A program made the position numbers and the translations under genes. The notes beneath the pieces are model-generated. The model did not search any database and was not told where the DNA came from. It worked only from the letters and a program-made list of their open reading frames with translations. From Aromatoleum buckelii (GTDB taxonomy: Bacteria; Pseudomonadota; Gammaproteobacteria; Burkholderiales; Rhodocyclaceae), in assembly GCF_012910785.2 (NCBI RefSeq), contig NZ_WTVH02000001.1, positions 248,001-312,000 on the forward strand: DNA of 64,000 nucleotides. Direction: 5' to 3'. Shown here piece after piece: positions 177 through 21,939 of the stretch (positions are counted from its first letter, which is position 1; each line of letters begins with the position of its first letter).

Positions 177-1961
177 CTACTGCCGCTTGTTCAGCTTGTC
201 GATCTGCTTCTGCTGCGCGGCGACGAGGCGCTCGAGGTCGGCGACCTTGCGCGAGATGTCGTTGACGTCCGCGGCCGGCCCTGCTGCGGCCAGCGGGGCC
301 AGCGCGGAGGCGTCGGAAGCGCGCGCGAGCAGCGCCGCCCACAGCGGGTGGTGCTTCGACGCGGCGCCTTCGCTGCGCAGCGCTTCATAGTCCTTGAGCA
401 TGAAGCTCAGCAGGTGGTCGGCGGCGAGCGCGTCGGCGAGCGGGTCCCCGCCCGTTTCCGGGGACGGGGTCGTCGGCGGGCGCCTCGCCGCCGCCCTGGC
501 GATTCCCGGCGTGCTCGCGGCCCCGCCCTGCTGGCCCGAAAAGGCGACGCCGATCATCAGCATCAGCAGCCGGTAGACGCTTCGCTCGCGCTCGTCGCCG
601 CAGCACAGGTCGGAAATCCACTTGCGCAGCAGCCCCCACGGCAGCCACGACAGCCAGTACATGATCGTGCGCCACGTGACGAGGATCTTGCGTGCTTCCC
701 AATTGCAGATCTCGACCACGCGGCAGGTGTCGCCGCCGACGGTGACGACCGCGAGCGGAACACAGTTGTCCGGCGACGGCGGCGGGCACGCCGGCAGCAG
801 CGCCGAGCAGAAGCACTCGGAGATGATGTCGAGCCAGGTCATGTCGAGCGCGGCGACGTTGCCCTTGAGCTGGCGTACCTGGTCCCTGGTGAGAACGCGA
901 GGTTCGCCGACGCGGCGAACGAACTCGCGCGCGTCGTCGTACTGGCGCTGCACGCGGGAAACGAAGGCGCAGCGGTGCAGGGAAAAGTCGGCGGCAAACT
1001 CCTGCAGCGCGGCTGCGTAGTCGGTATAGACCGACAGCGAGGCGGTGACGTCGAGCGCCTTGCCTTCGCGGATCGCCGCGCGCAGCTCCATCGCACGCGT
1101 GACGCAGCACAGCAGCCGTTCGAGCAGCGGGCCGAAGCGCGCGCGGTTCGCGTACAGCCACGCCCAGATCAGGTCGCCGGAACGCTCGCCGGCCGGGTCC
1201 GGAAGCTTCGCCGGCTTCGGCGCCGGGTAGGCGACGAAGCGGTAGCCTTCGCAGACCTGCGTCGGTTCGCATTGCGGCGCGTAGTCTTTGCGCCGCGGCG
1301 GGGCCGTCTCCCCATTCAGGCCGCAGCTGCAGTCGCCGCTCCTGCCCGGCGCTGCGCCGCTGCAGCTGGCGCAGCCGCAGCTCGTCGAACCGCCGCAAGC
1401 GCAGCGCGTGCCGCAAGGGGTGTCGCCCATCCCGAGTTGCGCGGTCATGCCGCGCACCGGCCGCTCGTCGTAGCAGATCGCCAGCACCCAGTCGCGCGCC
1501 TTGCCGCTGCAGTCCTGCGGCGGCGTGTCGTACGGCGGGTCGCACACCGGCTGGCGCGGCGCACACGTGTTGATCAGCGCGCAGAGGTCGACCGACTGGT
1601 CCGCGCAGACGACGATGTCGTCGCCGCATGGCGAGACCGCGTAACCGGTGCGGACGATGACGTGCCCGGGCGCGCAGGGGTCGCAGCCGACTTCGAGGCC
1701 GCAGGCCACGCCCCACCCATGCAGGTAGCGGTTGTGCAGGCGGTTCTTGTCGATGACGTACTGCTCGAGCCGATTGAGGTCGTCGTCCGTCAGCAGCTGT
1801 CCGGGAAAGAAACGCGGGCGGCACAGGCACTTGAGTCCGCCGCATGCCGGACACCGCGGCGTGCAGTCCTCCGCGCAGGGGTCGGGCCGCTGGCGTGCCG
1901 GCGCCCACGGGTTGACCGTGTCGAGGCGTTGCGTGGCGTCGTACATGAAGTCGTGCGACAT
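177..1961 (-). CDS. eCIS-associated Cys-rich fibre/adaptor-like protein
   Basis: 594 residues and the last visible gene of the tail operon, starting 27 bases after the upstream stop with a GGAG box before the ATG. The N-terminal ~210 residues contain FFPGQLLTDDDL, a tyrosine/lysine-rich helix, then LHGWGVACGLEV. The same pattern is in the upstream 805-aa protein, so the two are paralogous over this domain. Around residues 185-215 there is a dense cysteine cluster (CACGG, CGCASC, CSCG) that could bind metal or form disulfides. The C-terminus ends in a short coiled coil (heptads around LERLVAAQQKQIDKL). No catalytic motif is recognised. Position after the gpI-type gene suggests a baseplate-attached fibre or cargo adaptor, which is inference. 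Confidence 0.72.
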   Translation of the reverse strand: MSHDFMYDATQRLDTVNPWAPARQRPDPCAEDCTPRCPACGGLKCLCRPRFFPGQLLTDDDLNRLEQYVIDKNRLHNRYLHGWGVACGLEVGCDPCAPGHVIVRTGYAVSPCGDDIVVCADQSVDLCALINTCAPRQPVCDPPYDTPPQDCSGKARDWVLAICYDERPVRGMTAQLGMGDTPCGTRCACGGSTSCGCASCSGAAPGRSGDCSCGLNGETAPPRRKDYAPQCEPTQVCEGYRFVAYPAPKPAKLPDPAGERSGDLIWAWLYANRARFGPLLERLLCCVTRAMELRAAIREGKALDVTASLSVYTDYAAALQEFAADFSLHRCAFVSRVQRQYDDAREFVRRVGEPRVLTRDQVRQLKGNVAALDMTWLDIISECFCSALLPACPPPSPDNCVPLAVVTVGGDTCRVVEICNWEARKILVTWRTIMYWLSWLPWGLLRKWISDLCCGDERERSVYRLLMLMIGVAFSGQQGGAASTPGIARAAARRPPTTPSPETGGDPLADALAADHLLSFMLKDYEALRSEGAASKHHPLWAALLARASDASALAPLAAAGPAADVNDISRKVADLERLVAAQQKQIDKLNKRQ

Positions 1962-1988
1962 GACGGAATCTCCGGGCGAAAATGGGAA

Positions 1989-4406
1989 CTAGCCGCGCCT
2001 GGCGACCGCGAACCAGCTGAGGAAGGTGCCGCCCTCGATGCAGTCGCCGCTCCTGCGGCCGCCGGACACCCATGGCGGCAGGTGGTTGGCGTCGATGGCG
2101 CGCTGCCCCTTGGCGTCGCGGACGAGGTCGCCGTGCAGGCGCACGCGGTAGGTGTTGCCGGGCACGAGCGGCGGCTCGGGGTGGAAGCGCAGCGCGTTGG
2201 GCACGCCGTTGACGATTTCGCCCCCCTCTTCGCAGGGCTTGTCGAGGCGCAGCCGCTCGTACTTGCCCCGCAGCTGGCACCAGCAGTCGAGCTGCCGCTC
2301 GCGCTCGTCGGGGTCGCCGTGGATCGTCTCGACGATGAAAGCCTGCTCGAGCATTTTCTGCTTCAGGTCGGCCGGTTCGAGGTCGCCGTCGAAGGCGATC
2401 TCGATGAACGCGATGTCCTGCTCGGCGACGACGTCGGCGTGTTTCCAGTTGATGCGGCACACATGCACCAGGTCGCCGTCGCAGCACCGGGGCAGCGTCA
2501 GCGTCAGCACCTGGTTGGCGAGCGTCAGCGCAGGCGGGGTCGAGCAGTCGCCGACCTCCAGCACGACGTCGAGGACGCCCGGACTGCCATCCTGCCCATC
2601 CTGGCCGTCTGCGCCGTCCTGGCCGTCTGCGCCGTTCTGTCCCGGTGGTCCGGGAGGGCCGGGTACGCCGCCCTTCATCTGCAGGCATTCCAGCCACGCC
2701 TGCAGCGTCGCCGTCGTCGCCAGCAGCCGGCGGCCGGCGCGGTTGTCGATGCGTGCGATGCCCTGCGCGATGTCGTCGGCCGCCGCCGGCAGGTCGAGCA
2801 TCGTCATGCCGGGGATGTAGTTGGCGACGGTCGCGAGGACGACGCAATCGGCAATGTCGCAGCCCGCGCAGCCGTCGATCTGGTGCACGAGGTGATCCGC
2901 GCAGTCGCTGTCGGCGAGCGCGGTGACGTCGAGCGAGGCGAGTTGCCCGTTGGCGAGGATCAGCACGATGTGGCGAACGCCGGGCCTGAGTGCGCGCGGC
3001 GCCGCAACCAGCGGCGCGTTGCCGGTCGACAGCGGTGCGAGGTCAATCGACTGCACCCAGGCGTGGCCGGTGTCCTCCTCATAGACCGTGAGCCAGGGCG
3101 CTGCGGCGGTGCCGGTGGCGGCGAGGAAGCGCGGCGTGTGTGCGACGTCGATCGTGGCTTCGAGGGTGCCGGCGGCCACGGCGATGACATGGACGCGCTT
3201 TTCGCTGCCGCTGGCGATGCCGATCATCGGCGTCAGGCCGAGCACGAACGGCACCAGTGCGACAGGTTTGGCGCTTGCCGGCAACCCGCCGAGCGGGACG
3301 ACGCCGGGCGTCGTCAGATTGACGACCTGCACTTTTCCGGTCGTATCGACGAGGTAGGCGAACGTGCCGTCGCCGTTCGCGGCGAGCGTGCCGCTGCCGG
3401 CCGGCGTGGCGATCGGCGCGCCGTCGTCGGCATCGGTCACGCCGTGCGTCGGATCGGCGGCGAAACGGAACAGCTTGCCACTGCCCTGCTCGAGGACGAG
3501 CAGGGCGCTTGCCGCCGCCGACGTCGAAGCGGCGAACACCACGCTCGCTGCCGTCGATCCCGGGATTTTGCGCACCGCGCCGGCGACGACGGTCGCCACC
3601 TCCGCCCCGTCTGCGACGGCGTAGACATGGACTTCGCATTCCGTTCCGGCGTGCGGCGCGGTCACGACGAAAAAGCGCCCGCCGTCCGGGGCAAGCGCCA
3701 TCGCCTTGGCGGCGGCCGGCAGCGTCACGCTGATCATGCTCCGGTGCAAGGGATCGAGCACGAAGGCGCGGGTGGCGTTGCCCGGATCGATGACCGCGAC
3801 TTTGCCGGCGGCCGTCGCGCCGATGGCGCCTACGGCGCCGTGCAGATCGGTGGCGACGAAGGCGGCGAGTGCCGCGGCGTTGCCGATTTCGCCGGACACC
3901 GGCGGATCGACCAGCACGTCGAACGCGAACGACTCGAGGATGCGATTCGGCGCGCACTGGGTGTCGTCGCACCCGCACTCGTCGTACAGCACCGGCACTT
4001 CCTCGGTCGGGCAATCGCGATAACAGATCGCCAGCTGCAACGTATGCAGCTGGCCGTCGTGGGCAATCTTCTGCACCGCGGGGTGCTGCGCGATGTCGAC
4101 GATCTCGCGTTGCGGCAGGAGGATTTCGCGGCCACAGCAGTCGACGGCCGTTCCGGGATCGACGACGACGTAGCGTTTGCGGCATTCGGGTGACGGGTGC
4201 TGGCGTACCGCGAGACCGCAGACAACGCCCCAGCCGTGCAGGCGCACGTTATGGTGGCGCATCTTCTCGGCGTGGTAGTGCGATTCGGTGACGAATTCGC
4301 CGGCGCCCATCATCTTCCCGGTGAAGAAATGGTTGCGCACGAACGGCTCGAACTCGCACTGCGGGCAGCTATCCGGTTCCGAATGCTGGTGTTCGTGGTG
4401 AGCCAT
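1989..4406 (-). CDS. Putative tail fibre: adaptor domain, beta-propeller, collagen-like stalk
   Basis: 805 residues. Residues ~1-200 carry the FFTGKMMGAGEF ... LHGWGVVCGLAV domain shared with the next gene, including the matching LAICY and ECGCDD segments. Residues ~210-540 are alanine/valine/glycine-rich repeats that look like a YVTN-type beta-propeller. Residues ~577-610 are a collagen-like Gly-X-Y run (GPPGPPGQNGADG then GADGQD repeats), encoded by near-identical short DNA repeats at about 2578-2675. The C-terminal ~180 residues form a compact domain ending in GGTFLSWFAV. Collagen-like triplets typically trimerise, which fits a trimeric fibre on a baseplate. Receptor or cargo binding is inferred. 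A GAGGA box precedes the ATG. Confidence 0.75.
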   Translation of the reverse strand: MAHHEHQHSEPDSCPQCEFEPFVRNHFFTGKMMGAGEFVTESHYHAEKMRHHNVRLHGWGVVCGLAVRQHPSPECRKRYVVVDPGTAVDCCGREILLPQREIVDIAQHPAVQKIAHDGQLHTLQLAICYRDCPTEEVPVLYDECGCDDTQCAPNRILESFAFDVLVDPPVSGEIGNAAALAAFVATDLHGAVGAIGATAAGKVAVIDPGNATRAFVLDPLHRSMISVTLPAAAKAMALAPDGGRFFVVTAPHAGTECEVHVYAVADGAEVATVVAGAVRKIPGSTAASVVFAASTSAAASALLVLEQGSGKLFRFAADPTHGVTDADDGAPIATPAGSGTLAANGDGTFAYLVDTTGKVQVVNLTTPGVVPLGGLPASAKPVALVPFVLGLTPMIGIASGSEKRVHVIAVAAGTLEATIDVAHTPRFLAATGTAAAPWLTVYEEDTGHAWVQSIDLAPLSTGNAPLVAAPRALRPGVRHIVLILANGQLASLDVTALADSDCADHLVHQIDGCAGCDIADCVVLATVANYIPGMTMLDLPAAADDIAQGIARIDNRAGRRLLATTATLQAWLECLQMKGGVPGPPGPPGQNGADGQDGADGQDGQDGSPGVLDVVLEVGDCSTPPALTLANQVLTLTLPRCCDGDLVHVCRINWKHADVVAEQDIAFIEIAFDGDLEPADLKQKMLEQAFIVETIHGDPDERERQLDCWCQLRGKYERLRLDKPCEEGGEIVNGVPNALRFHPEPPLVPGNTYRVRLHGDLVRDAKGQRAIDANHLPPWVSGGRRSGDCIEGGTFLSWFAVARRG

Positions 4407-4430
4407 GGTCGGGTCCTCTTCTGAGAGTTC

Positions 4431-7076
4431 CTATGCCAACCGGGACGACGTGCCGACCCGTGCGCGGCCGACTTCGAGCGAGGGTGGGCGCGTGCTGCCG
4501 GCCGGCGCCGACGGGGCACTCGACAGGACGGTGCCCTGGCGCAGCCGTGCCTCGTCGAGGCGTACGCCGCAGGGCGTGCGCGCGATGACCGCGTCGAGCC
4601 CGACCATCGCCTGCACGCCGACGCGAAAGCGCGGCTCGACGTAACGCACGTCGACCGCGGTGTGCGCCGGCGCTTCGCGCGCGAGCAGGTCGTCGAGCGC
4701 GCGCTTCTCGCTCGCCGAGTCGCGGATGCGCGCGGGGACGAAGACGCTGAACTTGTGCGCGGTGACGTGGAAGGGGTCGCGCAGCGGGTCGGGAACGCTG
4801 TCGAGGCGCGTGACGCCCACCTGCGCGTTGCCGCGCTCAGGGTTTTGCGAGGTCGCGCTGCCGGAGAGCTGCGAGCGGCCGACGATGCGCTTCCCCCACA
4901 GCACGGAGTCGTCGCCGAGGCGGCCATGGCATGCATAGAGCCAGCGCCGCAGCTTGAAGTGCTCGAGGATCAGCGGCGGTGGCTCGGCCGGCGTGCACGG
5001 CGGGCACGGGCCGCAGTTTCTCGGCAGCGGCAGGCAGCGCGTCTGCGGGCGCTCGGCGAGGCAGTGCTCGGCGTAGGTGCGATCGAAGCCGAGCAGCAGC
5101 AGGAGCTGGCTGCGCAGACCGTCGGGCGTGCCGCGCTGGCAGTAGAGCTTCGCCGCCTGCTTGACGAAACGACGACGGCGTTCGAGGGGCCAGTCGCGTG
5201 ACAGCGTCACGCCGATCCAGTCGGCGATCCACGACAGGAAATCGAGCCGCCCGGGCAGCGCGTCGGCGGGCGCCGACAGCGGGTCGAACAGCATCGCCTC
5301 GCGGTCGACGCGTCCTTCGATCGAGCGCAGCGTCGCGTCGAAGATCGCCGTCAGCCGGTCGGTGAAGTCGGCACCGACCGGGTCGAAGCCGAAGACGCCG
5401 GGCAGGTAACGGCGCAGGGTGATGCGCGGGTACTCGACCAGCGCGGAGCCGATGCACGGCGTGACGCGGCCGTCGCCGGCGAGCTTGAGGTCGATCCACA
5501 GGAAGCGGCCAGGCGGGCTCGTGATCAGGCAGTCCCACGTGCAGGCCGACGGAATCGCCTTGTCGGGCGGCGTCATCGACGTCGAGACGAGGCGGGTCGC
5601 CCACGCGGATTCGGCCAGCGAATCGACCTCCGCCGGCGACAGTTCGATTGCCGCAGTCGTCGTGCGCACCTCGATCGAGGCGCCGGCGGGAAGGGCGCCC
5701 GAGAGCTCGATGCGATGCCATTGGCAGCCGTCGATGCCGGCGTCGAGAGCGTGCGAAAAGTAATGGCCGGTGCGCTCGTGGCGCTCGCCGTTCAGGCGCT
5801 CCTCGGGCGGCACAGGGCGTCCGTAGCGATCGAAGACGTCGGGGCCGCAGACACCGCACAGGTGCAGGTGACCGCGCGCATCGACGTGGATCGGGCTCGG
5901 CGGGAAACCTTCGACGAGGTCGGCGCGCGCTCCCGGAACGATCTCCACGCTGTCGCCGGCGATGCGGACCACGCGCGCGCCGGCGGCGATCACGTCGAAC
6001 GCCGGGGTCGCCGCATGGCCGGGCTCGGGCGCGAGCCTCAGGCGCAGGTAGCGGCCGACGACGCCCGAGAACGGCAGCGGATCGACCAGCCGCGGCAGGT
6101 CGGTACCCGCGAGCCACGGCGTCCAGCGCGGATTCGCGGCATCGTTGAGTTCGACGAGCGTCCAGGGCTCGTCGCCGGCATCGATCGCGATCGAGAAGCG
6201 CGCAGCGGGGAGCGGCGCGCCGAGCTTCAGCGTGTGCCAGTGGAAGCCTGCCGAGAGCGCATCGACCTGCAGCGCGACGCGCGTTGCACCGACCGCCGTC
6301 GCGACGAACTTCGTCTCGAACACGACCGCGTGGAGCCGGTCGCGGCAGTCGACCGCGAGATGCGTGACGCCGAGGCCCGCCTTCACGGCGCCGAGCCACT
6401 GGCCGCGCGGACCGAAGCGGTCGATGCGGCCGTTCCGGGGATCGGATACGTAAAGAATGCCATGGCCGTCGACGGCGAGGCCGGTCGGGTGCCACGGCGG
6501 GCTGGGCAGCGCCGCCTGCTGGCTCGGCGGCAGGCGCAGCGCGCCGCGCGGGACGAGGCCCGCGAGGCTGACGCGGACGACGCGGCCATGTCCGCGGTCG
6601 GCGATGAACAGTTCGCCCGCGCACACGGCGATCGCCTGCGCATCGAGCAGGCGGGTGAGCGGGACCGGCAGCGCCGCGGTGATGCCCGCCGCGCCGCGGT
6701 CGAGGCAGCCGGTGGGGTCGGCGGCGGTCTGCGTCGTGCACGGCAGCGGCTTGAAACGGCAGCAGCACGGGTCAAAGCGCGTGAGCGCGCCGGTCGTCGG
6801 TTCGAGCAGAAGGATGTCGCCGCTCGGTGTCTGCACGACATTCGGTGGCGGCTTGAGCCCGCCGAAGCTGCCGTCGGGTTCGCTCAGCCAGCGCGCAGTG
6901 GCGGGAGCGGGAGCGAGGACGAGGGCGCGCGTGCCGCCGTCGATGTCGACGCGCTCCGCTCGGCGCAGACGCCAGCCGATCGCAGGGCGCGGGCCGAGCC
7001 GGCCGGCGAGGAGCAGGGAGTAGGGGTCGTGCGGCGGGGCCGGCACGGGGGGCAGGCGCGAGACGTCGGTGCTCAT
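4431..7076 (-). CDS. Phage tail protein I-like baseplate wedge fused to NHL propeller
   Basis: 881 residues. I chose the ATG at 7076 because it overlaps the upstream gpJ-type stop as ATGA, implying coupled translation. The N-terminal ~270 residues contain NHL-type repeats (HPTGLAVDGHGILYVSD, AIAVCAGELFIADRGHGRV). A central beta-rich part follows. Residues ~520-690 match tail protein I (P2 gpI; TIGR02242-like), with LTAIFDATLRSIE, LSWIADWIG and YCQRGTPDGLR. The C-terminal ~150 residues (RLRQGTVLSS, VGRARVGTSSRLA) resemble attachment regions of such proteins. gpI links wedge to fibre, and the following gene is fibre-like. Confidence 0.85.
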   Translation of the reverse strand: MSTDVSRLPPVPAPPHDPYSLLLAGRLGPRPAIGWRLRRAERVDIDGGTRALVLAPAPATARWLSEPDGSFGGLKPPPNVVQTPSGDILLLEPTTGALTRFDPCCCRFKPLPCTTQTAADPTGCLDRGAAGITAALPVPLTRLLDAQAIAVCAGELFIADRGHGRVVRVSLAGLVPRGALRLPPSQQAALPSPPWHPTGLAVDGHGILYVSDPRNGRIDRFGPRGQWLGAVKAGLGVTHLAVDCRDRLHAVVFETKFVATAVGATRVALQVDALSAGFHWHTLKLGAPLPAARFSIAIDAGDEPWTLVELNDAANPRWTPWLAGTDLPRLVDPLPFSGVVGRYLRLRLAPEPGHAATPAFDVIAAGARVVRIAGDSVEIVPGARADLVEGFPPSPIHVDARGHLHLCGVCGPDVFDRYGRPVPPEERLNGERHERTGHYFSHALDAGIDGCQWHRIELSGALPAGASIEVRTTTAAIELSPAEVDSLAESAWATRLVSTSMTPPDKAIPSACTWDCLITSPPGRFLWIDLKLAGDGRVTPCIGSALVEYPRITLRRYLPGVFGFDPVGADFTDRLTAIFDATLRSIEGRVDREAMLFDPLSAPADALPGRLDFLSWIADWIGVTLSRDWPLERRRRFVKQAAKLYCQRGTPDGLRSQLLLLLGFDRTYAEHCLAERPQTRCLPLPRNCGPCPPCTPAEPPPLILEHFKLRRWLYACHGRLGDDSVLWGKRIVGRSQLSGSATSQNPERGNAQVGVTRLDSVPDPLRDPFHVTAHKFSVFVPARIRDSASEKRALDDLLAREAPAHTAVDVRYVEPRFRVGVQAMVGLDAVIARTPCGVRLDEARLRQGTVLSSAPSAPAGSTRPPSLEVGRARVGTSSRLA

Positions 7077-9160
7077 CCGCCCGCTCCTTCGAACTCGAAC
7101 GCCGTCAGCACCTCCACTCGCAACGCCGCGACTCTCACCAGCGCATTCGGCGCGAAAGGCGAGATCGCCACGTCGCGGCACTCCGGTTGCTCGTCCCCCT
7201 CGACCGTCAGCACCAGCCGCGGCACGCTGTCGACGCCGACGACGGCAAACACCTGCTGCACGATCTTCGAATAGCGCAACGCGCCGCCGAAAGGCCACCC
7301 CGACCCGTCGTCGCCGCCGAGCAACGGATGCAGATACGTCGCCAGCGCCTTCTCGACGTTCTGCTTCACGACGGCCGGATCGGCGTTGTCCTCGACGACC
7401 ACCTGGGCGTCGATTTCGACCGCGACATAGCGCGGCGCGACGACGAACAGTTCCGTCGTCAACAGCCGCCGCGCATCGAGGTACGCGCAGACGGTGCGCA
7501 GCAGTCCGTCGCTCGGCAGCGGATTCGGCCCCGCTGCGTCGGGGACGACGATCACCGTCACCGCGCCGGGAACGGCGACGCCGGGAAAGCGCGGATGCGT
7601 AAGAGGCAACGCCTTGGCGCGCTTGACGTTGCCGGCCTGCTGCGCGAGCAGCTCGAAGTCGTCGACGCTCACGGCGCGTTCTCGCGCGCGCAGGGCGCGA
7701 CGTGCGCGCACCTGCGCCTCCTCGAAGCGCTCCTCCTCGCGCCCGCCGTAGGCGGCGAAGACGTTCGTGGTCTTTCCGCCGTCGAGGCCGTCGATCGGCG
7801 ACAAGAGCGTCGCGATCGTGCCGGCGGCGACGTTGCCGCGCTTGCCGCCGCCAAAGCGGTATTCGACGGCGACGACGTTGGTATCCGGGTTGTCGGCGTT
7901 GGCGACCGGAATCTGGCCGTGCTCGCCGTCGCCGGCGCGCACCTCGCCGCTGGTCCAATTCACCGCCAGCACTTCGTCGGTCGGGCCGGCGCCGAACAGG
8001 TCCTCGGCGATCGCCCAGCGGCGTGCAGAGGCGCCGGGCGCCGCGGCCGCGTCGTCGGCGATGCCTTCGTCGATCTCGATGACGAGGCTGCCGTGCACGA
8101 TCGGCGTGTTTTCAAGCTGGAAAGTCTGGTTGCGCGCGCCCGTCGTGCCGCCGAGGATCTCGCGCTGCACCGTCTGCGCCTGCAGCGCCGGCACCGTGTT
8201 CGTGCGCACGGCGGCGAGACGCGGCGCGCGTTCGTACTGGTTGCGGGACAGGCGCGCACGCAGCCAGAACAGCGGCTCGCGCGGCTGCTTGGTGACGGGG
8301 TCGATGGCGTCGTACTCGCCGAGGAAACTTCGCGCCAGATTGAGCTTGCTGTCGATGCGCAGCATGATGTGGCCGGTGCGCGTGAAGGCGAGCGTCTCGT
8401 CGTTGAGCGCATCGACGCGCACCCATTCGGCGCCGTCCCAGCCTTCCCACTCGAGCTTCGCCGCGGCGAACGCACGCGTCGGCCGTGCGCATTGTACGGT
8501 CAGGGATTGCGTCGGCTGCTCGAAGGCCCAGAAAGCGAGGTCGAGGCTGAGCGTCGGAAACTGATCCGGCGTGGGGTAGGTCGGCGGGAACCCGAAGCCG
8601 AGGACGAGCGCCGCATCGTCGCGCGGCGCGTCGCCGAACGGCGCGAAGCCGGTCGGGTTCGGCCGGAGCGGCGTTGGCGAGACGCTGGAGTTCGCCGCGC
8701 TGACGTCGTGGTAGACGGCGCCGTCGTACGCCTGCACGGCGAGCAGCCTGCATGCGACCGCGGTCAGCGGCCGCTCGGTCTCGAACACGATCGGCGGACC
8801 CTCGTCGGACGGCGCACTGACCTGCGTGCGCGCCGGCACGATGACGGTCGGCAGCGGCCACGCCTCGTCGACGGCGAAGCTGACGTCCGCGCGCGCCGGC
8901 AGCGCCGGCATCAGCTCGATACCGATCAGCTCGAGGAACTTCACATAGTTGAGCTGCGGCACGCGTGCCATGCGAAAGAGCAGCATCTCCGACAGCCAGG
9001 CGAAGACGTGCGCGAGGATCATGCCCGGGTCGTTGTCGTTGACGTCGTTCCACTCGGGCTTCCACTCCGGCGTGTAGCGCGCGATGCGCGAGCGGATCTC
9101 CGCGACGATGTCGCTGTAGCGGCGGTCGTCGATGACGGGCAGGGCGTCCTTCAGCGGCAT
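7073..9160 (-). CDS. Baseplate J-like protein (gpJ, TIGR02243-like)
   Basis: 695 residues, the size expected of the 'putative baseplate assembly protein' family of tail-like clusters. The N-terminus has NDNDPGMILAHVFAW and YVKFLELIGIEL, typical of gpJ-like wedge proteins. The middle (TNVVAVEYRFGGGKRGNV) and C-terminus (RARRALRARERAVSVDDFELLAQ; split here as RARRALRARE and VSVDDFELLAQ) match the baseplate J signature. The C-terminal ~100 residues include VEKALATYLHPLLGG. It starts one base before the gp25 stop region and overlaps the next gene by ATGA. It should form the ring around the spike with gpI. Confidence 0.9.
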   Translation of the reverse strand: MPLKDALPVIDDRRYSDIVAEIRSRIARYTPEWKPEWNDVNDNDPGMILAHVFAWLSEMLLFRMARVPQLNYVKFLELIGIELMPALPARADVSFAVDEAWPLPTVIVPARTQVSAPSDEGPPIVFETERPLTAVACRLLAVQAYDGAVYHDVSAANSSVSPTPLRPNPTGFAPFGDAPRDDAALVLGFGFPPTYPTPDQFPTLSLDLAFWAFEQPTQSLTVQCARPTRAFAAAKLEWEGWDGAEWVRVDALNDETLAFTRTGHIMLRIDSKLNLARSFLGEYDAIDPVTKQPREPLFWLRARLSRNQYERAPRLAAVRTNTVPALQAQTVQREILGGTTGARNQTFQLENTPIVHGSLVIEIDEGIADDAAAAPGASARRWAIAEDLFGAGPTDEVLAVNWTSGEVRAGDGEHGQIPVANADNPDTNVVAVEYRFGGGKRGNVAAGTIATLLSPIDGLDGGKTTNVFAAYGGREEERFEEAQVRARRALRARERAVSVDDFELLAQQAGNVKRAKALPLTHPRFPGVAVPGAVTVIVVPDAAGPNPLPSDGLLRTVCAYLDARRLLTTELFVVAPRYVAVEIDAQVVVEDNADPAVVKQNVEKALATYLHPLLGGDDGSGWPFGGALRYSKIVQQVFAVVGVDSVPRLVLTVEGDEQPECRDVAISPFAPNALVRVAALRVEVLTAFEFEGAGG

Positions 9161-9574
9161 TTATCTCGACTCCCGGATGTAGAACGGATAGACCAGGTTG
9201 CCGATCGAGTTCGTCTCGCGCACGCGGTAGTTGATGCGGATGAGCAGCAAGTTCGGCGCGTCGAGGGTGGTTTCGGCATGCACGTCGAGCACGTCGATGC
9301 GCGGCTCGTAGCGCGTCAGTGCCTGGCGCACGTCATGCACGACGAGCGCCACCGTGCGCGAGTCGTTGGGCGCGAACAGCGTGTTGTGGATGCCGCAGCC
9401 GAATTCCGGCAACATCGGCAGCTCGCCCGGAACCGTGGACAGGACGATGACGATGGCTTCCTCGATGCGCTGCTCGTAGCGCGCCTGCGCGATCCGGCCG
9501 CTTGGCGTCACCTGCAGCGGGAAGCGCCAGCCGACGCCGAGGAATTCGCGATTCGTGCTGCGTTCGCCGTCCAT
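9161..9574 (-). CDS. gp25/GPW-like baseplate protein
   Basis: 137 residues, normal for the T4 gp25 / P2 gpW family. Visible motifs are FLGVGWRFPLQ, the helix YEQRIEEAIVIVL, and PGELPMLPEFGCGIHN, which contains the proline-rich baseplate signature; the second half has VHDVRQALTRYEPRI. The start at 9574 overlaps the upstream stop as TGATG, whereas the open frame extends far upstream without homology. This protein forms the sheath-proximal baseplate layer. Confidence 0.92.
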   Translation of the reverse strand: MDGERSTNREFLGVGWRFPLQVTPSGRIAQARYEQRIEEAIVIVLSTVPGELPMLPEFGCGIHNTLFAPNDSRTVALVVHDVRQALTRYEPRIDVLDVHAETTLDAPNLLLIRINYRVRETNSIGNLVYPFYIRESR

Positions 9575-10356
9575 CACAGCTCCTGTTTCGGCCCGCCGCC
9601 CTGCGGCTGGTAGCGGATGATTTCGGCATCGAGCGGGCCGGCGAGCACGATGCTGCGCCCGGGGGCTGGCTGCAGCCGGATGTCGCCGTTGTCGAGCAGC
9701 ACGATGCGCGCGCGCACCGCGCCGTCGGGCGCGCAACTCGCGATCTCGACCTCGCGGCCGCTGTTGGCACGGATCTCGACGAAGCCCGCTGCCGCGAGCG
9801 CGGAATCCTTGAGCAGCAGGCGCGCGCGCTCGCAGGTCTGCGCGTCGCCGGTGTCCAGGCTCACGGCGAAGCGTTGGGTGTCGGCGAGGCTGGCGAAGAC
9901 GAGGTCGGCGGAGGGGTCGCTCAGGCCCCGATAAACGCCGCCATCGCGGTGCGCCTCGACGAACGCGCGCAGCCGGTAACGCGGATTGCCGCCGGTCGCC
10001 TTGGCGATCTTCGGCGCGCCGTTCCTGTCCTTCGCTCCTGCCGCGACGAGGATGCCCTGCCATGGCAGCGCCGCGCCGGCCTTGAACACCAGCGGCAGCG
10101 GCGGCAGCGGCGCGAGCGCGTCGAGGTCGAGCGGCGCCGGCCCCCAGCGTTGCTCGGCGTCGTTCCAGATCTCGTCCGCGCCGGCGGCGGCGCGGTACAG
10201 ATGCACGCCGATCCTGTCGATCGCGTCGCCGGCGAGCGCGGTGCCGTCGGCGAAGGCGAGCGGCGCAAGGCACACGTTGACGACCCTCTCGATCGTCGGC
10301 GGCGCGTCGGGCGGATCGAGCGGTAATTGCGGCACGGGGATCGAGAGCGGGAACAT
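9574..10356 (-). CDS. Unknown protein between spike and gp25
   Basis: 260 residues, no family recognised. It begins MFPLSIPVPQLPLDPP, is rich in proline and alanine, and has a moderately beta-rich C-terminus (DNGDIRLQPAPGRSIVL). It has no PAAR motif (no conserved histidine/cysteine pattern), so I do not call it the tip. It sits 10 bases after the spike stop and overlaps gp25 by one base, so it is surely translated with the baseplate genes. A baseplate accessory or spike-associated role is inferred from position only. Confidence 0.7.
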   Translation of the reverse strand: MFPLSIPVPQLPLDPPDAPPTIERVVNVCLAPLAFADGTALAGDAIDRIGVHLYRAAAGADEIWNDAEQRWGPAPLDLDALAPLPPLPLVFKAGAALPWQGILVAAGAKDRNGAPKIAKATGGNPRYRLRAFVEAHRDGGVYRGLSDPSADLVFASLADTQRFAVSLDTGDAQTCERARLLLKDSALAAAGFVEIRANSGREVEIASCAPDGAVRARIVLLDNGDIRLQPAPGRSIVLAGPLDAEIIRYQPQGGGPKQEL

Positions 10357-10366
10357 TGCGTCGCCC

Positions 10367-11290: not shown

Positions 11291-11330
11291 GAACGCCTCC
11301 CTTGGCCTGCCGCCCACTCCGTCCGTTGCG

Positions 11331-12557
11331 TCATACCGCCCCCTCGTCGTTGTTCTCGCGGCGCGCAGTGAATTTGGTCAGGTAGCCGCTGTCGTTGATC
11401 GTGTGCGTCGTCTTCGTGACGAAATAGACGCCCGAGAAGCGTGCGCCCAGGCCGCGGATGCGCACGCGCTGGCCGGCGCGCAGGTCGGGCAGCCCGACCG
11501 TCGTCCCGGTCGCCTCGACCATCTGCTTGAGGCGCTCCGACAGCAGCGCGGCGGCGCGGTGGTCGGCCTGCTCCGGCGTGTACTGCGGCTCGTTGACGAC
11601 GACCTCCTCGCGCGGCGTGCAGCCGGGCGGATCGAGCAGGTGGATGAGATCGGCGTTGACGCGCAGGTCGGGGTGCTTCAGGTCGGCCTTCTTGCGCACC
11701 GACTTGTTCGTCTGCCGGTTCCAGCTGCGCACTTCGATCGACTTCACCTGGTTCGCCGTCGATAGCTTGGGGGTGAAGTCGATCAGCGAGATGCCCCACT
11801 TCAGTTCGTAGGTGACGTCCGGCACCTTCGGGTTCTTCGCGTTCGACGGCCCGAAGTGCAGCACTTCGCGCGGCGGCTTGCCCTTGCCCTGCGGCTCGAG
11901 GTCGACGTAGACGACGTAGCCGACTTTCCTCGCCTCGAGCAACAGGAAGTCGATGTCGTACTGGTTGTCCTGCGCGATGTAATCGAGCTTCGGCTCGCGC
12001 CGCTTGGCCTGCGCGTCGGTGCGGATCGGCAGCGGAAAGCGCTTCTTGCCGTTGTCGGTGCGCCGGCCGATGTCCTCGGCGACGTCGCTGATCTTCCTGT
12101 TCTCCCAGTGGTCGCGGTACTGCTTCGTGCGCAGCTTGAACAGCACGTTGAGCGCGCGCACCGTGAGCGTCGAGGCGCCCCCCGCGGGAAAGCTGGGTTC
12201 GAGGCTGGTCGATGTGCCCTTGACGATGCTCAGCAGGTTCGAGCCGTAGCCGAGCTTCAGCTCGAAGTCGGCGAGGCACGGCTCGAACAGGCGCTGGACC
12301 TGTTCATCCGGGCTCGCCCCGGTGAGCTTCGCCTGCTTTTCGCTGCCGACGTACTTGAAATTCTTCGTCATGTCGTCCCAGTTGTTGACGGTGATGTCGA
12401 AGCTGTCGATCTCGGTCGTCGAGTCGTTGTAGCTGACCTGGATGACGTCGCGCAGCACCGCCGGCGGCAGCGATTTGCCGCCGACGTGGATCTCGAAGCG
12501 CGGGACGTAGAAGTCCTCGAAAGTCGCGGAGGCGTCCTGCAGCGTCGTCGCAGGCAT
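11331..12557 (-). CDS. Late control D / gp27-like hub protein
   Basis: 408 residues. FYVPRFEIHVGG and the segment EIDSFDITVNNWD are typical of the gpD/gp27-like N-terminal half of VgrG. Downstream are LTVRALNVLFKLR and YIAQDNQYDIDFLLLEARK, the usual gpD tail-protein motifs; the C-terminus carries LRAGQRVRIRGLGARFSGVYFVTK split over a typical 'phage late control' region. It starts 10 bases after the LysM gene. It should sit between the tube end and the spike as the trimeric hub. Confidence 0.87.
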   Translation of the reverse strand: MPATTLQDASATFEDFYVPRFEIHVGGKSLPPAVLRDVIQVSYNDSTTEIDSFDITVNNWDDMTKNFKYVGSEKQAKLTGASPDEQVQRLFEPCLADFELKLGYGSNLLSIVKGTSTSLEPSFPAGGASTLTVRALNVLFKLRTKQYRDHWENRKISDVAEDIGRRTDNGKKRFPLPIRTDAQAKRREPKLDYIAQDNQYDIDFLLLEARKVGYVVYVDLEPQGKGKPPREVLHFGPSNAKNPKVPDVTYELKWGISLIDFTPKLSTANQVKSIEVRSWNRQTNKSVRKKADLKHPDLRVNADLIHLLDPPGCTPREEVVVNEPQYTPEQADHRAAALLSERLKQMVEATGTTVGLPDLRAGQRVRIRGLGARFSGVYFVTKTTHTINDSGYLTKFTARRENNDEGAV

Positions 12558-12566
12558 GTCGTTGTC

Positions 12567-13397
12567 CTAGGTCAGGGGCGGAATCGTCAGGAAGACGCCG
12601 GGCGTCAGCCGACGCGGGTCGTCGATGCCGTTGTTCTCGGCGATGGGCCGCCATTCGGATGGCCGGTCGTAGTAGCGGTTGGCGACGCTCGCCAGCACTT
12701 CGCCCTGCTGCAGGGGATGGACGTGCGTGCGGTCGGGCGAGCTCAGGTGCAGTTCGAGCAGCTGGTCGCGCAGGCGCTTGTACTCGCGCAGGCTGACCGT
12801 CAGCGTCGCGCGCAGCGGAATGCCTTCCGGCGAGAACAGCGTGAATTTCTGCTTGATGCTTTCGATGATGCAGCGAAAGCCGTTGCGCCGCTGGCTGCCG
12901 AGCGGCGGCCCGACGACCGACTGCGCCGCTGCTCCAGTGCTGCCGGCGGCCTGCACCGCCGCGCCCACGGCGGCCCCTGCGGCTTGCGCCGCGCCGCTGA
13001 CCGTCTGCGTCAGCGCCGCGGCGACGCTTCCCGGCGCGCCGCCGATGTGCGTGCCGGCCATCTCGTGGCTCCAGATGAACTCGACGATGGGCGGCGCGTG
13101 CCGCTTCGGCTCGATCTTGATCAGCTGGTAGATCTTGTCGGTCTCGGTCGTCACGCTCGTCGCGCCCGCCCCCATGCCCAGCTCCGTGGTGTCGAAGAAC
13201 AGCTCGAGCGTGAGCTTCTCGGCGTTGCCACGGACGAACTGCTGCAGCGGCGCGTCGAGGCCGGGGATCTGCACCTCGCCGATCTGCGCCGACTTGTCGA
13301 ACGAATACTCGGTCGGGTTGTACTGCACGGGGATGTCCTGCGGCTGGTCGAGGCCGAACCAGTAGACGCGGAAGATCGCTTTCGCCGGCTCGTTCAT
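12567..13397 (-). CDS. CIS tube-end protein with C-terminal LysM domain (Afp7/gp53-like)
   Basis: 276 residues. N-terminal ~150 residues contain VQYNPTEYSFDKSAQ and EKLTLELFFDTTE, the CIS-tube family signature. An alanine-rich linker (residues ~125-165) follows. The last ~55 residues are a LysM module (HVHPLQQGEVLASVANRYY ... TPGVFLTIPPL). In known contractile systems this protein caps the tube at the baseplate. The first codon overlaps the upstream stop (ATGA, 13394-13397). Confidence 0.88.
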   Translation of the reverse strand: MNEPAKAIFRVYWFGLDQPQDIPVQYNPTEYSFDKSAQIGEVQIPGLDAPLQQFVRGNAEKLTLELFFDTTELGMGAGATSVTTETDKIYQLIKIEPKRHAPPIVEFIWSHEMAGTHIGGAPGSVAAALTQTVSGAAQAAGAAVGAAVQAAGSTGAAAQSVVGPPLGSQRRNGFRCIIESIKQKFTLFSPEGIPLRATLTVSLREYKRLRDQLLELHLSSPDRTHVHPLQQGEVLASVANRYYDRPSEWRPIAENNGIDDPRRLTPGVFLTIPPLT

Positions 13398-13606
13398 TTG
13401 TGCTTCTCCTCGCAGGCGTTGCAGCCGCCGCCGATATGCGTGTCGCGCCGGTGCGCCTCGCGGTCGCGCTGCTCGCTCTCCATCGCCGCCATCACCGCAG
13501 CGACGATGCGCTCGAGGATCGATGGCGTCAGCAGCGACTCGCTGTCGACGACCCGCATCGTTCCCGTCACTTCGCGAATCCGGATTTGCGGGGCTGCCAT
13601 GGTCAT
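13394..13606 (-). CDS. Small DUF5908-like tail cluster protein
   Basis: 70 residues. It resembles the small DUF5908 proteins found in eCIS loci at the same place: a short beta strand (PQIRIREVTGTMRV) then a helix (ILERIVAAVMAAME). The C-terminus is rich in His and Cys (GGGCNACEEKHK), which could bind metal. Two in-frame ATGs lie 6 bases apart (13606 and 13600); the GAGG box suits the second better. The stop overlaps the LysM gene's ATG. Function is unknown. Confidence 0.7.
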   Translation of the reverse strand: MTMAAPQIRIREVTGTMRVVDSESLLTPSILERIVAAVMAAMESEQRDREAHRRDTHIGGGCNACEEKHK

Positions 13607-13610
13607 CGCC

Positions 13611-14219
13611 TCACAGCAGGTTGCCGATCGCGCCCGGCGTGCTGCCGGCCGCCGCGATGCTCGCGCCGAAGCCGCCGCCGGCGACCGCCGAGGCGAGCGC
13701 GGTTGCCGCGCCGACGAAGGGCAGCTGGAAGATTCCTTCGTGCGTGATCTCGATCGACTCGATCGCGACGCTGTTCTGCATCGCGTTCATCTGCGGACCC
13801 GAGTACTTACTCGGCAGGCCGCGGCGGAAGAACCAGACGTTGTTCGGCACGTGCAGGTCGCTCAGCAGCACGATCAGCCCGTCGCGGCGCTTGCCCTTGC
13901 CGATGACGAAGCCGTAGTGCCAGTCCCACAGCGTGTTGCCCGAGCCGATACCCTTCTTCAGCGTGATCGCCGACCATTCGACGCGGTTCGGGAACTGGCG
14001 CGTGAAGCCGTTGGCGCCGCCTTCCTTGTACGGCTCGGGCTTCATCGTCATTTCGATCCCCGAGCACTCGGAGAAGCCGCCGACGGCGACGTCGAGCGCC
14101 GCGGACAGCGCTGCCGAACCGATCGTCGCCAGCACGCTGCTGGTGTCGAGCAGGCTGACGACGAAGTTGTGGTTGAGCACCGGATCGGCGCGCAGCGCAG
14201 TAGGGGCGAGGAGGGCCAT
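13611..14219 (-). CDS. Tail tube protein 2 (gp19/Hcp-like, TIGR02241-like)
   Basis: 202 residues. Motifs GGFSECSGIEMTMKPEPY, NGFTRQFPNRVEW and ITLKKGIGSGNTLWDW are the conserved tube signature (the 'conserved phage tail region protein' family). It is longer than the first tube (147 aa) because of an N-terminal extension and a glycine/alanine-rich C-terminal tail, as in Afp5-type tube-initiator proteins. It may form the ring joining tube and baseplate. A CGGAG box lies upstream. Confidence 0.9.
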   Translation of the reverse strand: MALLAPTALRADPVLNHNFVVSLLDTSSVLATIGSAALSAALDVAVGGFSECSGIEMTMKPEPYKEGGANGFTRQFPNRVEWSAITLKKGIGSGNTLWDWHYGFVIGKGKRRDGLIVLLSDLHVPNNVWFFRRGLPSKYSGPQMNAMQNSVAIESIEITHEGIFQLPFVGAATALASAVAGGGFGASIAAAGSTPGAIGNLL

Positions 14220-14234
14220 TGCTCTGTTGCTCCG

Positions 14235-14276
14235 TTACAAGTGGACGGTCGGCGGGGGGACGGGATACCGGTTCAT
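14235..14276 (-). CDS. Possible 13-codon micro-ORF between sheath and tube genes
   Basis: An ATG at 14276 overlaps the stop of the short sheath gene (ATGA) and opens a 13-codon frame, MNRYPVPPPTVHL, ending 15 bases before the tube ATG with that gene's ribosome-binding region after the stop. It could be a coupling peptide that carries ribosomes from the sheath to the tube cistron, or chance. Coding status is unproven. Confidence 0.25.
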   Translation of the reverse strand: MNRYPVPPPTVHL

Positions 14277-16312: not shown

Positions 16313-16326
16313 GGTCGCGACCCGGA

Positions 16327-16770
16327 TCACATCTCGAGCGTCAGCCCTTCATGCACGAGCTCGAGCGACTCCATTGCCACGTCGTTCGACGACGCTTTCA
16401 GCGCCGGGCCTTCGATCTTGTTGATCCACGCGTTCTCAGCGTGCCAGCGCAGCACCGGCTGACGCGCCTCGTTCATCAGCACGATCGTCACGTTGCGCCG
16501 GTCGGGGACGCCGTTCATGATGTTCACGTACCACTGCCACAGTTCCTTGTCCTGCGTGTAGCCACGCTTGAGGGTGATGTTGGTGTATTTCCTGAGGCCC
16601 ATCAGCTTGCGCACGTTCGACTGCAGGTCGGTGCCCTCGCGGTAGTCGACGCTGTCGCCGTCGGCAGTCAGCCCGCCGACCTCGGAGAAGGCGCCGCGCG
16701 AGACGTTGTCGATCTCAAGCGAGAAGTTGTAGCCGCGGACGGGGTCGTTGCGCTGGTCGGTCGCTGGCAT
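16327..16770 (-). CDS. Tail tube protein 1 (gp19/Hcp-like)
   Basis: 147 residues, standard for the inner tube subunit. Motifs are PVRGYNFSLEIDNVSRGAF, FSEVGGLTADGDSV, LMGLRKYTNITLKRG and SLELVHEGLTLEM. It lies 10 bases after the large sheath gene and 14 before the second sheath. It is predicted to polymerise as hexameric rings inside the sheath. Confidence 0.94.
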   Translation of the reverse strand: MPATDQRNDPVRGYNFSLEIDNVSRGAFSEVGGLTADGDSVDYREGTDLQSNVRKLMGLRKYTNITLKRGYTQDKELWQWYVNIMNGVPDRRNVTIVLMNEARQPVLRWHAENAWINKIEGPALKASSNDVAMESLELVHEGLTLEM

Positions 16771-16780
16771 GTCGTTTCTC

Positions 16781-19903: not shown

Positions 19904-19915
19904 CGAGGTTCTCCT

Positions 19916-21322
19916 TCAGCTGAACACGATCGAAACCAGGTTGTCGGCCATCTGCTCGAGCGCGAAGTCGAGCTGCTGGTCCGGGTGCGGCGGGCGGCGC
20001 GCGAACAGTCGCAGTTGGGCGATGCGCGCAAGAGGCGGCCACACCGTCCGCCCGTTCGCGTCGAGCACCGTCTGGTGTGTGAAATTGACGCCGTCCCACG
20101 CCGGGTACTGCGTCGCGGTGTAATACGCGGCGTGGGGGGTCAGGTGCTCGATGGCGATCACGCTCGAGGTCGGAAGCGCGCCGATTCCGGCGGCGAAGAC
20201 GACTGCGTCACCGGGCAGCGCCTCGCGGCTGACGTTGCCGCCGGGGGTTGCGGCGCTGACGGCGAGGTCGCTCACCGGCTCGGTCACGCGATGAATCGCC
20301 GCCGTGGGCGCGGTGAGGCGGATCGTCACCGCGGCGTTCGGGTCGGCGACCGGGCCGAAGCCGGCGCTGACGACGATCTCGACCTCGGGCAGCAGGGGAT
20401 CGCCGAGGCGCAGCAAGTCGCCCCCGGCCGGATTGAGCCCGGCGTTCGGCGCCACCGTGATCGATGTCGCGCCGCGCGGCGCGAGCTCATGCAGGTGGCG
20501 CGGCGCACCCGACGCGGTGAGTGTGCAGCGGTGGATCGGGGCGCCGACAGGGTGCGCAAACCGCAAGCCGGGCTCGACCGCGCAGAAATCGCCGGCAACC
20601 GGAGGCGAAGTCTGCGTGTCCGGGTATGCCAACCAAATTCCGGCGATGCCGATCTCGGCACCGGTCGCCGCCACCATGCTTGTCGGGCTGCTGCGCCGGC
20701 GCATCAGAACGCGCAGCGCGAGCGGCGCTGCACGGTGCAGCGGCTGCGTGGGCAGTGCAAGCGGCACCCCGCTGACGCGCGTACCGGACGGACGGAGGAC
20801 TTGCGGGCCGTCGGCGATCGGCACCGTCGCCGGTGCCGGCGGCGGGGAAACGACGTTCGTGAACTGCTCGGCTTCGATCGAGGCCGTGCGCTCTAGCAGC
20901 ACCCCGCGCCCAGGTCGAAACTGCAGCGGCGGTACGGTGTCCGGCGGCAGCACGTCGAGGCTGGCGGCACCGGGGTTCGCAGGGGCGTTCAGCGCGCGGC
21001 GGGCGGCGTCGATCGCCGGCGTCAGGTCACGCGGCAGGTAGCCTGCAGCCTCGACGCTCGCGCTCAGTGCGCCCGGCATCACGAGCGCCGCCGAGACGTC
21101 GCGTGGCCGCGCGACGAGTCCGCAATAGCCGCCTTCGGCGATCCGTACCGTGGCGCGGCGCAGATTCGTCGTCAGCCGGATCCGGTTGGCCGGCGGCGCC
21201 AGCGTCAGCTCGTCGATGACGCGCGTGCGCAGCACTGCCCAGATTGAAAGGTCAGCGGGCGGCGGATCACCGTCGGCGATGGTATAGCGGATCGAGTCGT
21301 GGACGACCTCGCGACGCGCCAT
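19916..21322 (-). CDS. Unrecognised eCIS operon protein with Ig-like N-terminus
   Basis: 468 residues, second gene of the operon. The N-terminal ~110 residues (VIDELTLAPPANRIRL, GGYCGLVARPRD, SVEAAGYLPRDL) read like a carboxypeptidase-regulatory/Ig-like beta domain. The middle contains two modules with LRFAHPVG and GGDLLRLGDPLLPEVEIVV, echoing the repeat pattern in the giant sheath's insert. The end (HPDQQLDFALEQMADNLVSI) is helical. It starts by TGATG overlap with the DUF4255 gene. I cannot assign a function; a surface or sheath-binding protein is a guess. Confidence 0.65.
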   Translation of the reverse strand: MARREVVHDSIRYTIADGDPPPADLSIWAVLRTRVIDELTLAPPANRIRLTTNLRRATVRIAEGGYCGLVARPRDVSAALVMPGALSASVEAAGYLPRDLTPAIDAARRALNAPANPGAASLDVLPPDTVPPLQFRPGRGVLLERTASIEAEQFTNVVSPPPAPATVPIADGPQVLRPSGTRVSGVPLALPTQPLHRAAPLALRVLMRRRSSPTSMVAATGAEIGIAGIWLAYPDTQTSPPVAGDFCAVEPGLRFAHPVGAPIHRCTLTASGAPRHLHELAPRGATSITVAPNAGLNPAGGDLLRLGDPLLPEVEIVVSAGFGPVADPNAAVTIRLTAPTAAIHRVTEPVSDLAVSAATPGGNVSREALPGDAVVFAAGIGALPTSSVIAIEHLTPHAAYYTATQYPAWDGVNFTHQTVLDANGRTVWPPLARIAQLRLFARRPPHPDQQLDFALEQMADNLVSIVFS

Positions 21323-21939
21323 CAGCTTTCGCTCCCGACGATCACCGCCTCGTCGCTCCGCACCGACTCGACGAGCGGCGCGGTGAGCGGGTCGGCGCCG
21401 CTATCGATATTGGCCAGCGTCACTTCGTACGAGACCGCGAGCTGGTAGGAGCCTTCAAGTGCCTCCCAGACTCGCGTTATTTCCTCAATGTTCAGGGCCT
21501 CGAGGTGGATGTGGATTTCGGCATCGGTGCCGGCGAACTCGGCGCGCAGCAAGGCGCCGGCGACCACCGGATGCGTGTGGAAGAGCTGCAGTGCGCGGCC
21601 GAGGATGCGCTGCTCGGTGTCCGGGATCCCGGGGGCGAGCGGCGTAAGCAGGTAATGCAGACGGACCGGCAGCGGCGGCGGCACGAGTTCGGTGGCGCCG
21701 CCCGGCAGGGTGCGCACGCTCGGCGGCTCGTTGAGCCGGAATTCGTCGCGGGCGATCCGGTAGAGCCAGACCGACAGCCCCTGGCGCCCGGCAGCCACCA
21801 TTTCCTGCGGGGTTTCAAGCGAAACCGTCGTCGTTCCGGTGAAGAACGTTGCCAGCCCGCTTGGTCCGACATCGGTCGTCATCGAATCCAACAATAATTG
21901 GCGCAGCGTTTCGCTGGTTGCGGCAAGGCTTGTGTACAT
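21322..21939 (-). CDS. DUF4255 protein (Pvc16/Afp16-like tail terminator/cap)
   Basis: 205 residues and the first gene of the tail operon. The central sequence (GRQGLSVWLYRIARDEF and PLPVRLHYLLTPLA) is the DUF4255 signature, and ILGRALQLFHTHPVV follows. In Afp/PVC particles the DUF4255 protein caps tube and sheath and limits length, though there it is the last gene rather than the first. No strong Shine-Dalgarno sequence is visible before the ATG. The next gene overlaps by one base. Confidence 0.88.
   Translation of the reverse strand: MYTSLAATSETLRQLLLDSMTTDVGPSGLATFFTGTTTVSLETPQEMVAAGRQGLSVWLYRIARDEFRLNEPPSVRTLPGGATELVPPPLPVRLHYLLTPLAPGIPDTEQRILGRALQLFHTHPVVAGALLRAEFAGTDAEIHIHLEALNIEEITRVWEALEGSYQLAVSYEVTLANIDSGADPLTAPLVESVRSDEAVIVGSES

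Follow-up and report, generated by a model that had tools for sequence, protein, structure and literature searches.

A stretch of 64,000 nucleotides from Aromatoleum buckelii, referred to here as the window, comprises bases 248001-312000 of a 334,342-base contig (NZ_WTVH02000001.1) in a genome of 4.16 Mb and carries the structural operon of an extracellular contractile injection system (eCIS). Just beyond position 1 of the window the locus continues with two large effector genes, and each of these has a gene of an immunity-protein family next to it. We consider it reasonably probable that a complete-looking eCIS of the Tail_P2_I type is carried here by a plasmid-like replicon, that the two putative nuclease effectors of this eCIS are accompanied by their immunity genes, and that it is aimed at bacteria. 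Genes were called with a codon-usage model on the window plus 20 kb of the same contig, and the predicted proteins were scanned against the families of Pfam, PHROG and NCBIfam. Genes beyond position 1 are given in the coordinate frame L002, in which a position equals the window position plus 20000 (Table 1).

Two effectors and the immunity-family genes beside them

Both effectors, A and B, match eCIS_core (DUF4157; E-values of 7.9e-26 and 8.1e-20) and each contains an HExxH motif. These are the only two eCIS_core matches of the genome, and the genome's single Imm33-like and single Imm49 matches lie in the same locus. The Imm33-like gene overlaps effector A by 4 bases, and the Imm49 gene, the product of which carries a zinc-ribbon-like tail, ends 24 bp from the stop codon of effector B in convergent orientation. 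Both immunity families are rare: among 150 genomes of the bacterial family, Imm49 is found in eight (five over the cut-off) and the Imm33-like family in five (four over the cut-off), the own genome being included in both counts. In one search covering 12 genomes no Imm33-like member was found, and the controls of that search were negative as well.

The pairing of effector B with Imm49 recurs outside this locus. The last 236 amino acids of effector B, here called domain B, form a PD-(D/E)XK-like C-terminal domain that was detected in the own genome only (1 of 274 and 1 of 398 genomes). The complete list of plasmid records matching domain B at an E-value of 0.01 consists of two proteins, namely the end of an Rhs protein from Pseudoalteromonas shioyasakiensis (E 3e-6) and the end of a DUF637 hemagglutinin-type protein from a Photobacterium (E 2e-4), and in both an Imm49 gene directly follows the domain-B gene, with gaps of 21 and 9 bases. 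The residues E, D, ExK and Q are kept in all three sequences. The partners listed for Imm49 are Tox-REase-1 and Tox-REase-6, which have the signature E, D, ExK, Q (Zhang 2012, PMC3482391). Effector B thus resembles these toxins in its restriction-endonuclease-like residues and in its Imm49 partner, but its carrier is an eCIS_core protein instead of an Rhs or hemagglutinin-type protein, and the table rows for Tox-REase-1 and -6 in that paper list no PVC (Photorhabdus virulence cassette) route.

Effector A ends in an HNH-like C-terminal domain of 203 amino acids (domain A), which was found in 3 of 274 and in 4 of 398 genomes, the own genome counting in both; one outside genome match that was examined is an HNH-type protein of different make-up. 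Domain A matches a DUF4150 effector within a VgrG-DUF2169-DUF4150 cluster of Rhizobium tumorigenes (two plasmid records; E 1e-8) as well as a Rhodococcus protein, and the pattern DH...N...N is kept in all three sequences. Homologues of the Imm33-like protein occur in three plasmid records, and in one of the two examined the gene stands three genes behind a hemagglutinin-type gene.

How uncommon such an arrangement is was judged from a sample of 62 other loci that together hold 83 eCIS_core proteins, taken from a genome scan, which yields at-least counts, and from the regions of family members. As neighbours we counted proteins of 70-450 amino acids within two genes that were whole open reading frames in one stretch (n = 127). 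None of the 25 families listed, out of 115, for these 127 neighbours is an Imm family, a list in which families with one member may be hidden, and the type II antitoxin family PhdYeFM appears with two members. When the 1637 predicted proteins of the other loci were searched with profiles for both toxins and both immunity genes, each built on three or four sequences, no further copy was found. In the region L027 of the relative G125, three eCIS_core proteins in a row are followed by two small genes on the opposite strand, which might be immunity genes. That eCIS loci contain immunity genes is an idea already in print. A few toxin-immunity pairs were found in eCIS loci, and most antibacterial eCIS toxins came without an immunity gene, termed an "intriguing mystery" (Geller 2021, PMC8213781); the relevant passage of a 2023 review states that no such eCIS immunity proteins are known, and that of a 2026 review treats cognate immunity genes as a given. 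Among the closest published likenesses are eCIS toxin-immunity pairs such as that of EAT5, an eCIS-linked RES-like toxin whose neighbouring antitoxin gene protects bacteria (Geller 2021, PMC8213781), in comparison with which the present locus has two pairs, both of predicted nucleases and both with named immunity families.

Structural genes and gene order

The chassis is that of an ordinary eCIS. An independent gene model, recounted, places 16 consecutive genes on the minus strand from window position 21939 down to 177, as the sequence-only reading had described them; four junctions overlap, by 4, 4, 1 and 1 bases, and the gaps elsewhere are mostly short. Pfam matches above the cut-offs comprise two sheaths, two gp19 tubes, CIS_tube, the OB-fold spike, gp25, Baseplate_J, Tail_P2_I and Pvc16_N/DUF4255; sheath, tube, spike and a gp25/J baseplate, all expected of an eCIS, are thus present. 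Sheath, tube, hub, spike and wedge were thereby recovered through Pfam and PHROG, and the fibres through CIS13-like N-termini that score far below the cut-off. A DUF4255 gene, the sole match in the genome, is indeed the first of the run. For this gene the model gave a start at 21801; the ATG at 21939 was used instead, since in the longer form the Pfam domain already starts at residue 8.

Table 1. Features of the locus and of its surroundings. Positions without prefix are those of the window.
Feature	Position	Strand	Evidence or remark
Possible sigma-54 promoter	21993..22008	-	GG and GC kept, 2 mismatches; starts 69 bp upstream of DUF4255 start
DUF4255/Pvc16_N cap (tail terminator), 205 aa (amino acids)	21322..21939	-	PF14065 E 1.5e-36
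468-aa protein, slot of Alg16B-type cap adaptor	19916..21322	-	position only
Sheath 1, 1040 aa	16781..19903	-	PF17482 2.6e-16, PF04984 1.2e-13
Inner tube 1	16327..16770	-	PF06841 8.8e-42
Sheath 2, 679 aa	14273..16312	-	PF17482 4.4e-15, PF04984 1.9e-9; alternative GTG start at 16330
Inner tube 2 (gp19-like)	13611..14219	-	PF06841 3.4e-29
70-aa protein	13394..13606	-	position only
CIS_tube (Afp7-like)	12567..13397	-	PF19266 5.4e-29
Hub (gp27/gpD-like), separate from spike	11331..12557	-	PHROG tail protein phrog_52 9e-29
OB-fold spike	10367..11290	-	PF04717 1.5e-20
260-aa protein between spike and gp25, PAAR slot in consensus order	9574..10356	-	position only (order: Sarris 2014, PMC4122934)
gp25 baseplate wedge	9161..9574	-	PF04965 5e-25
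Baseplate J (Afp11)	7073..9160	-	PF04865 1.6e-26
Tail_P2_I baseplate/fibre adaptor with NHL repeat match	4431..7076	-	PF09684 2.7e-6, PF01436 8.3e-6
Fibre 1, CIS13-like N-terminus	1989..4406	-	NF053767 6.1e-22, residues 21-163, far below cut-off
Fibre 2, CIS13-like N-terminus	177..1961	-	NF053767 1.3e-7, far below cut-off
Fibre 3, 745 aa, CIS13-like	1..23	-	NCBIfam; first 23 bases in window, rest beyond edge
Candidate tape measure	L002:16087-17781	-	CIS_TMP 7.9e-6, 25.9 bits vs cut-off 27.8
AAA+ ATPase with winged-helix domain (WHD)	L002:13900-16041	-	PF00004 1.3e-26, WHD 7.5e-22
Effector A, 1532 aa	L002:9305-13903	-	eCIS_core
Imm33-like gene	L002:8694-9308	-	Pfam 1.8e-16
Effector B, 1435 aa	L002:4260-8567	-	eCIS_core; TTG start, first residues uncertain
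Imm49 gene	L002:3207-4235	+	Pfam 1.1e-25
Sigma-54-type activator, 469 aa	L002:1763-3172	+	Pfam
IncP-like maintenance block KfrA-KorA-IncC/ParA-KorB	L004:10352-14208 = contig C1:218352-222208		Pfam and plasmid match

The sequence-only reading had reported an operon without a visible ATPase, tape measure or PAAR tip. This is true inside the window and misleading for the whole locus, since the ATPase and the candidate tape measure are cut off by the window edge. When the sequence was extended past position 1, the AAA+ ATPase was found and, in its expected place directly before it, a candidate tape-measure gene scoring slightly below the cut-off; this gene and the ATPase begin 2.2 and 4.0 kb past the edge on the same strand. 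The PAAR gene was not found by this extension, and PAAR_motif has no match anywhere in the genome, by a search that was positive in 3 of 14 control genomes. A PAAR gene appears to be absent from the clusters of Proteobacteria, in which hub and spike domains are on separate open reading frames (Sarris 2014, PMC4122934), and for this reason neither the lack of PAAR nor the split of hub and spike is odd here.

The first position of DUF4255, which had been taken as an oddity, proved to be a common layout. Among 150 family genomes, 35 contain DUF4255, and 20 relatives with its short form were taken for comparison. The order DUF4255, one other protein, sheath is present in 17 of their 20 regions, and of the remainder one region was unreadable and two have a spurious gene model on the minus strand where the sheath would be. 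Likewise, an ATPase comes after the genes for sheath, tube and gp25 in 17 of the 20, the other three regions being at most 16.5 kb long, and a protein of 255-333 amino acids stands directly after DUF4255 in 16 of 19 relatives' regions.

Three proteins of the operon (468, 260 and 70 amino acids) have no family match in Pfam, PHROG or NCBIfam. The 468-amino-acid protein is, by position, a candidate for the role of an Alg16B-like cap adaptor, homology to which could not be shown, and the 260-amino-acid protein is, likewise by position, a possible tip; their AlphaFold models from single sequences are unusable, with pLDDT (predicted local distance difference test) values of 31 and 33, respectively. 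The smallest protein occupies what we take to be the slot of a small Pvc6/Afp6-like gene. As judged by eye, the tail of the spike is repetitive and probably beta-helical. Fibre 1 holds a collagen-like stretch (PF01391 2.8e-4, below the cut-off), and fibre 3 is matched by PHROG tail-fibre profiles at 1e-9. Searches of PDB sequences with proteins P0004, P0006 and P0008 gave nothing useful, and a match of P0004 to a plant cyclophilin-type protein (E 0.003) was taken as chance.

Among described systems, AlgoCIS of Algoriphagus machipongonensis (PMC8894135) is similar in its short single-domain cap (197 amino acids there versus 205 here), in a second cap protein, Alg16B, to which the 468-amino-acid protein corresponds by position only, and in having two DUF4157 cargo proteins with different C-termini. 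A difference is that the word immunity is absent from the main text describing AlgoCIS. With its Tail_P2_I gene and three fibre genes the locus also resembles the eBAP3/Tail_P2_I class (Nachmias 2026, PMC12923769), which shares the Tail_P2_I adaptor, the several fibres and a collagen-like stretch in one of them; an assignment to eBAP3 would be one by resemblance.

A plasmid-like replicon and possible regulators

The IncP-like maintenance block lies about 7.5 kb left of the sigma-54 activator and over its full 3857 bases shows 95.3% identity with plasmid 2 of Aromatoleum aromaticum EbN1, the record of which is typed as conjugative. A 20-kb stretch overlapping the block matches the same plasmid at 97.0% over 73%. 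The G+C content amounts to 70.6% in the cluster, to 62-63% in its flanks and to 67.9% in a 20-kb stretch of contig 2. In our reading the locus is an island of high G+C content within a plasmid replicon, the host being a Rhodocyclaceae bacterium, and the contig is probably a plasmid; its ends do not overlap and so give no sign of circularity. Thauera and Aromatoleum belong to the same family. Thauera has been named among isolated carriers of such clusters, for which genetic exchange was inferred (Sarris 2014, PMC4122934).

For the flanks, Pfam was applied to 25 of the 29 predicted genes right of the cluster in the window and, on the left, to 9 of 23 in L004 and to the L002 genes adjoining the cluster, small open reading frames being omitted. 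The mobile neighbours of the cluster are transposases and plasmid genes and not phage genes. Two transposases of different families lie to its right (window 38561-39598 and 47343-48317). To the left, L004:6993-7649 is a RES-domain toxin-like gene preceded by a small gene, and the EbN1 plasmid also has a gene of the RES family in the matching stretch.

The Imm49 gene stands 34 bases behind the sigma-54 activator gene on the same strand. The possible sigma-54 promoter before DUF4255 is weak: about 5% of shuffled upstream regions contain an equal site, and the window has 25 such sites versus 27.5 expected by chance. A perfect -24/-12 site was found in 1 of 19 relatives (G079, region L040; 189 bp upstream of DUF4255), and the other relatives have sites with at least three mismatches or none. 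Among the papers searched, none that mentions sigma-54 as well as eCISs has a title pointing to eCIS control. A LuxR/GerE regulator of 548 amino acids (L004:17358-19004) is encoded in the interval from the plasmid backbone to the eCIS cluster, and GerE is found beside 25.8% of eCIS loci (Geller 2021, PMC8213781).

Some further neighbours may be mentioned. Just outside the cluster, L152:2662-4296 encodes a 544-amino-acid protein resembling an alpha/beta-hydrolase, with membrane stretches and, by eye, an HSHGG motif; it has no Pfam match and is a possible extra effector. The window furthermore encodes a secreted-looking DNA/RNA non-specific endonuclease (28490-29224; PF01223 1.7e-46) and a large hybrid protein whose single chain unites receiver, PAS and histidine kinase domains with GGDEF and hemerythrin domains (23997-26867). 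The segment before the operon (22000-23300) contains no convincing intact gene and by eye looks like decayed remnants.

Likely target, alternative readings and significance

From these parts we infer a particle that would consist of cap, sheath, tube, split hub and spike, a gp25/J/Tail_P2_I baseplate and three fibres, and that would be built with the help of the tape measure and the AAA+ ATPase. The two large effectors would be loaded via their N-terminal eCIS_core domains and injected once the particle has bound a target cell, where the HNH-like domain of effector A and the PD-(D/E)XK-like domain of effector B may both cut nucleic acid, and the Imm33-like protein (for A) and Imm49 (for B) may protect the producer and its kin. 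As an immunity-family gene lies beside each effector, the prey is likely to be other bacteria.

Several observations weigh against this reading. At 0.01, neither Pfam nor NCBIfam has a toxin model that matches the effectors, and searches of PDB sequences with both toxin domains gave nothing significant, so that the nuclease assignment depends on motifs and on distant matches. The Imm49 gene converges with that of effector B in this locus, but runs in the same direction as the toxin gene in both outside cases. When Imm49 itself served as the query, its sole plasmid match (Streptomyces) had no annotated toxin adjoining, and the same is true of the second Imm33-like homologue examined, in Priestia. 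Of the two pairs, A is the less certain; it rests on adjacency because the gene beside the Rhizobium DUF4150 effector lacks a family match and its product has no detectable similarity to the Imm33-like protein, and the 4-base overlap occurs in the present locus only. A nuclease meant for eukaryotes would need self-protection too. Finally, the fibres do not decide the target: fibre 3 is matched by PHROG tail-fibre profiles, but phage records searched directly with two of the three fibres gave no match.

A tentative and rather unlikely alternative is that this eCIS has protists or other eukaryotes as its target and that the immunity genes do no more than protect the producer while nucleases accumulate before release. 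Nucleases cut any DNA, the two fibres searched have no phage relatives, four eCISs act between bacteria and invertebrate hosts, and eukaryotic cell lines are killed by a nuclease that MACs (metamorphosis-associated contractile structures) inject (Geller 2021, PMC8213781). Against this, both toxin domains are shared with T6SS-type (type VI secretion system), Rhs or hemagglutinin-type proteins, where domain B travels with Imm49. It appears improbable to us that the immunity-family genes are chance or misnamed neighbours of ordinary eCIS_core proteins with no known activity. The missing toxin-model matches and the occurrence of both immunity families elsewhere without annotated toxin would fit such an explanation, as would the lack of a recognised immunity gene for most tested antibacterial eCIS toxins (Geller 2021, PMC8213781), but each immunity family has a single match in the genome, each match adjoins one of the only two effectors, and the pairing of domain B with Imm49 recurs in both outside cases.

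Intracellular contractile systems for regulated cell death or development exist in Streptomyces (PMC10020575), yet it is very improbable that this locus encodes one, since its three fibre-type genes with CIS13-like N-termini and its immunity genes argue for an external target and intracellular systems were earlier assumed to lack fibres (as reported by Nachmias 2026, PMC12923769). Hardly credible at all is a defective prophage, tailocin or T6SS, parts of which share ancestry with sheath, tube and baseplate: the AAA+ ATPase, DUF4255 and eCIS_core are present, and no capsid, terminase, portal, holin or lysin family was found among the flanking genes scanned. TssK has no match in the genome, by a search that was positive in 1 of 14 controls, and TssJLM have none among the flanking genes scanned, no genome-wide search for them having been made. 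The sequence-only view of an injection machine without capsid or packaging genes, distinct from prophage and T6SS, is therefore supported, and the eCIS marker genes found after extension agree with it.

Nuclease colicins likewise combine a plasmid-borne nuclease with an immunity protein and are released from the cell; they hijack receptors, in contrast to the injection particle proposed here. By analogy, though we regard it as unlikely, the plasmid-borne eCIS could act as a nuclease bacteriocin that is released by part of the population and kills neighbours that do not carry the two immunity genes, among them former carriers of the plasmid. If so, the particle would serve the plasmid outside the cell as a means of addiction and competition, and the sigma-54 activator, maybe co-transcribed with Imm49, could switch on immunity and machine together.

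Whether some eCISs are weapons against bacteria is still argued. Here two effectors of nuclease type, both paired with a named immunity family, stand in one locus, which makes this question directly testable, and pair B is shared with Rhs and hemagglutinin-type toxins. The locus suggests an unusually clear case for an antibacterial eCIS, in which target and activities are as yet predicted. With this cargo it deserves testing at the bench as a plasmid-borne eCIS directed at bacteria, and the plasmid-like replicon adds a possible reason for the spread of such a machine.

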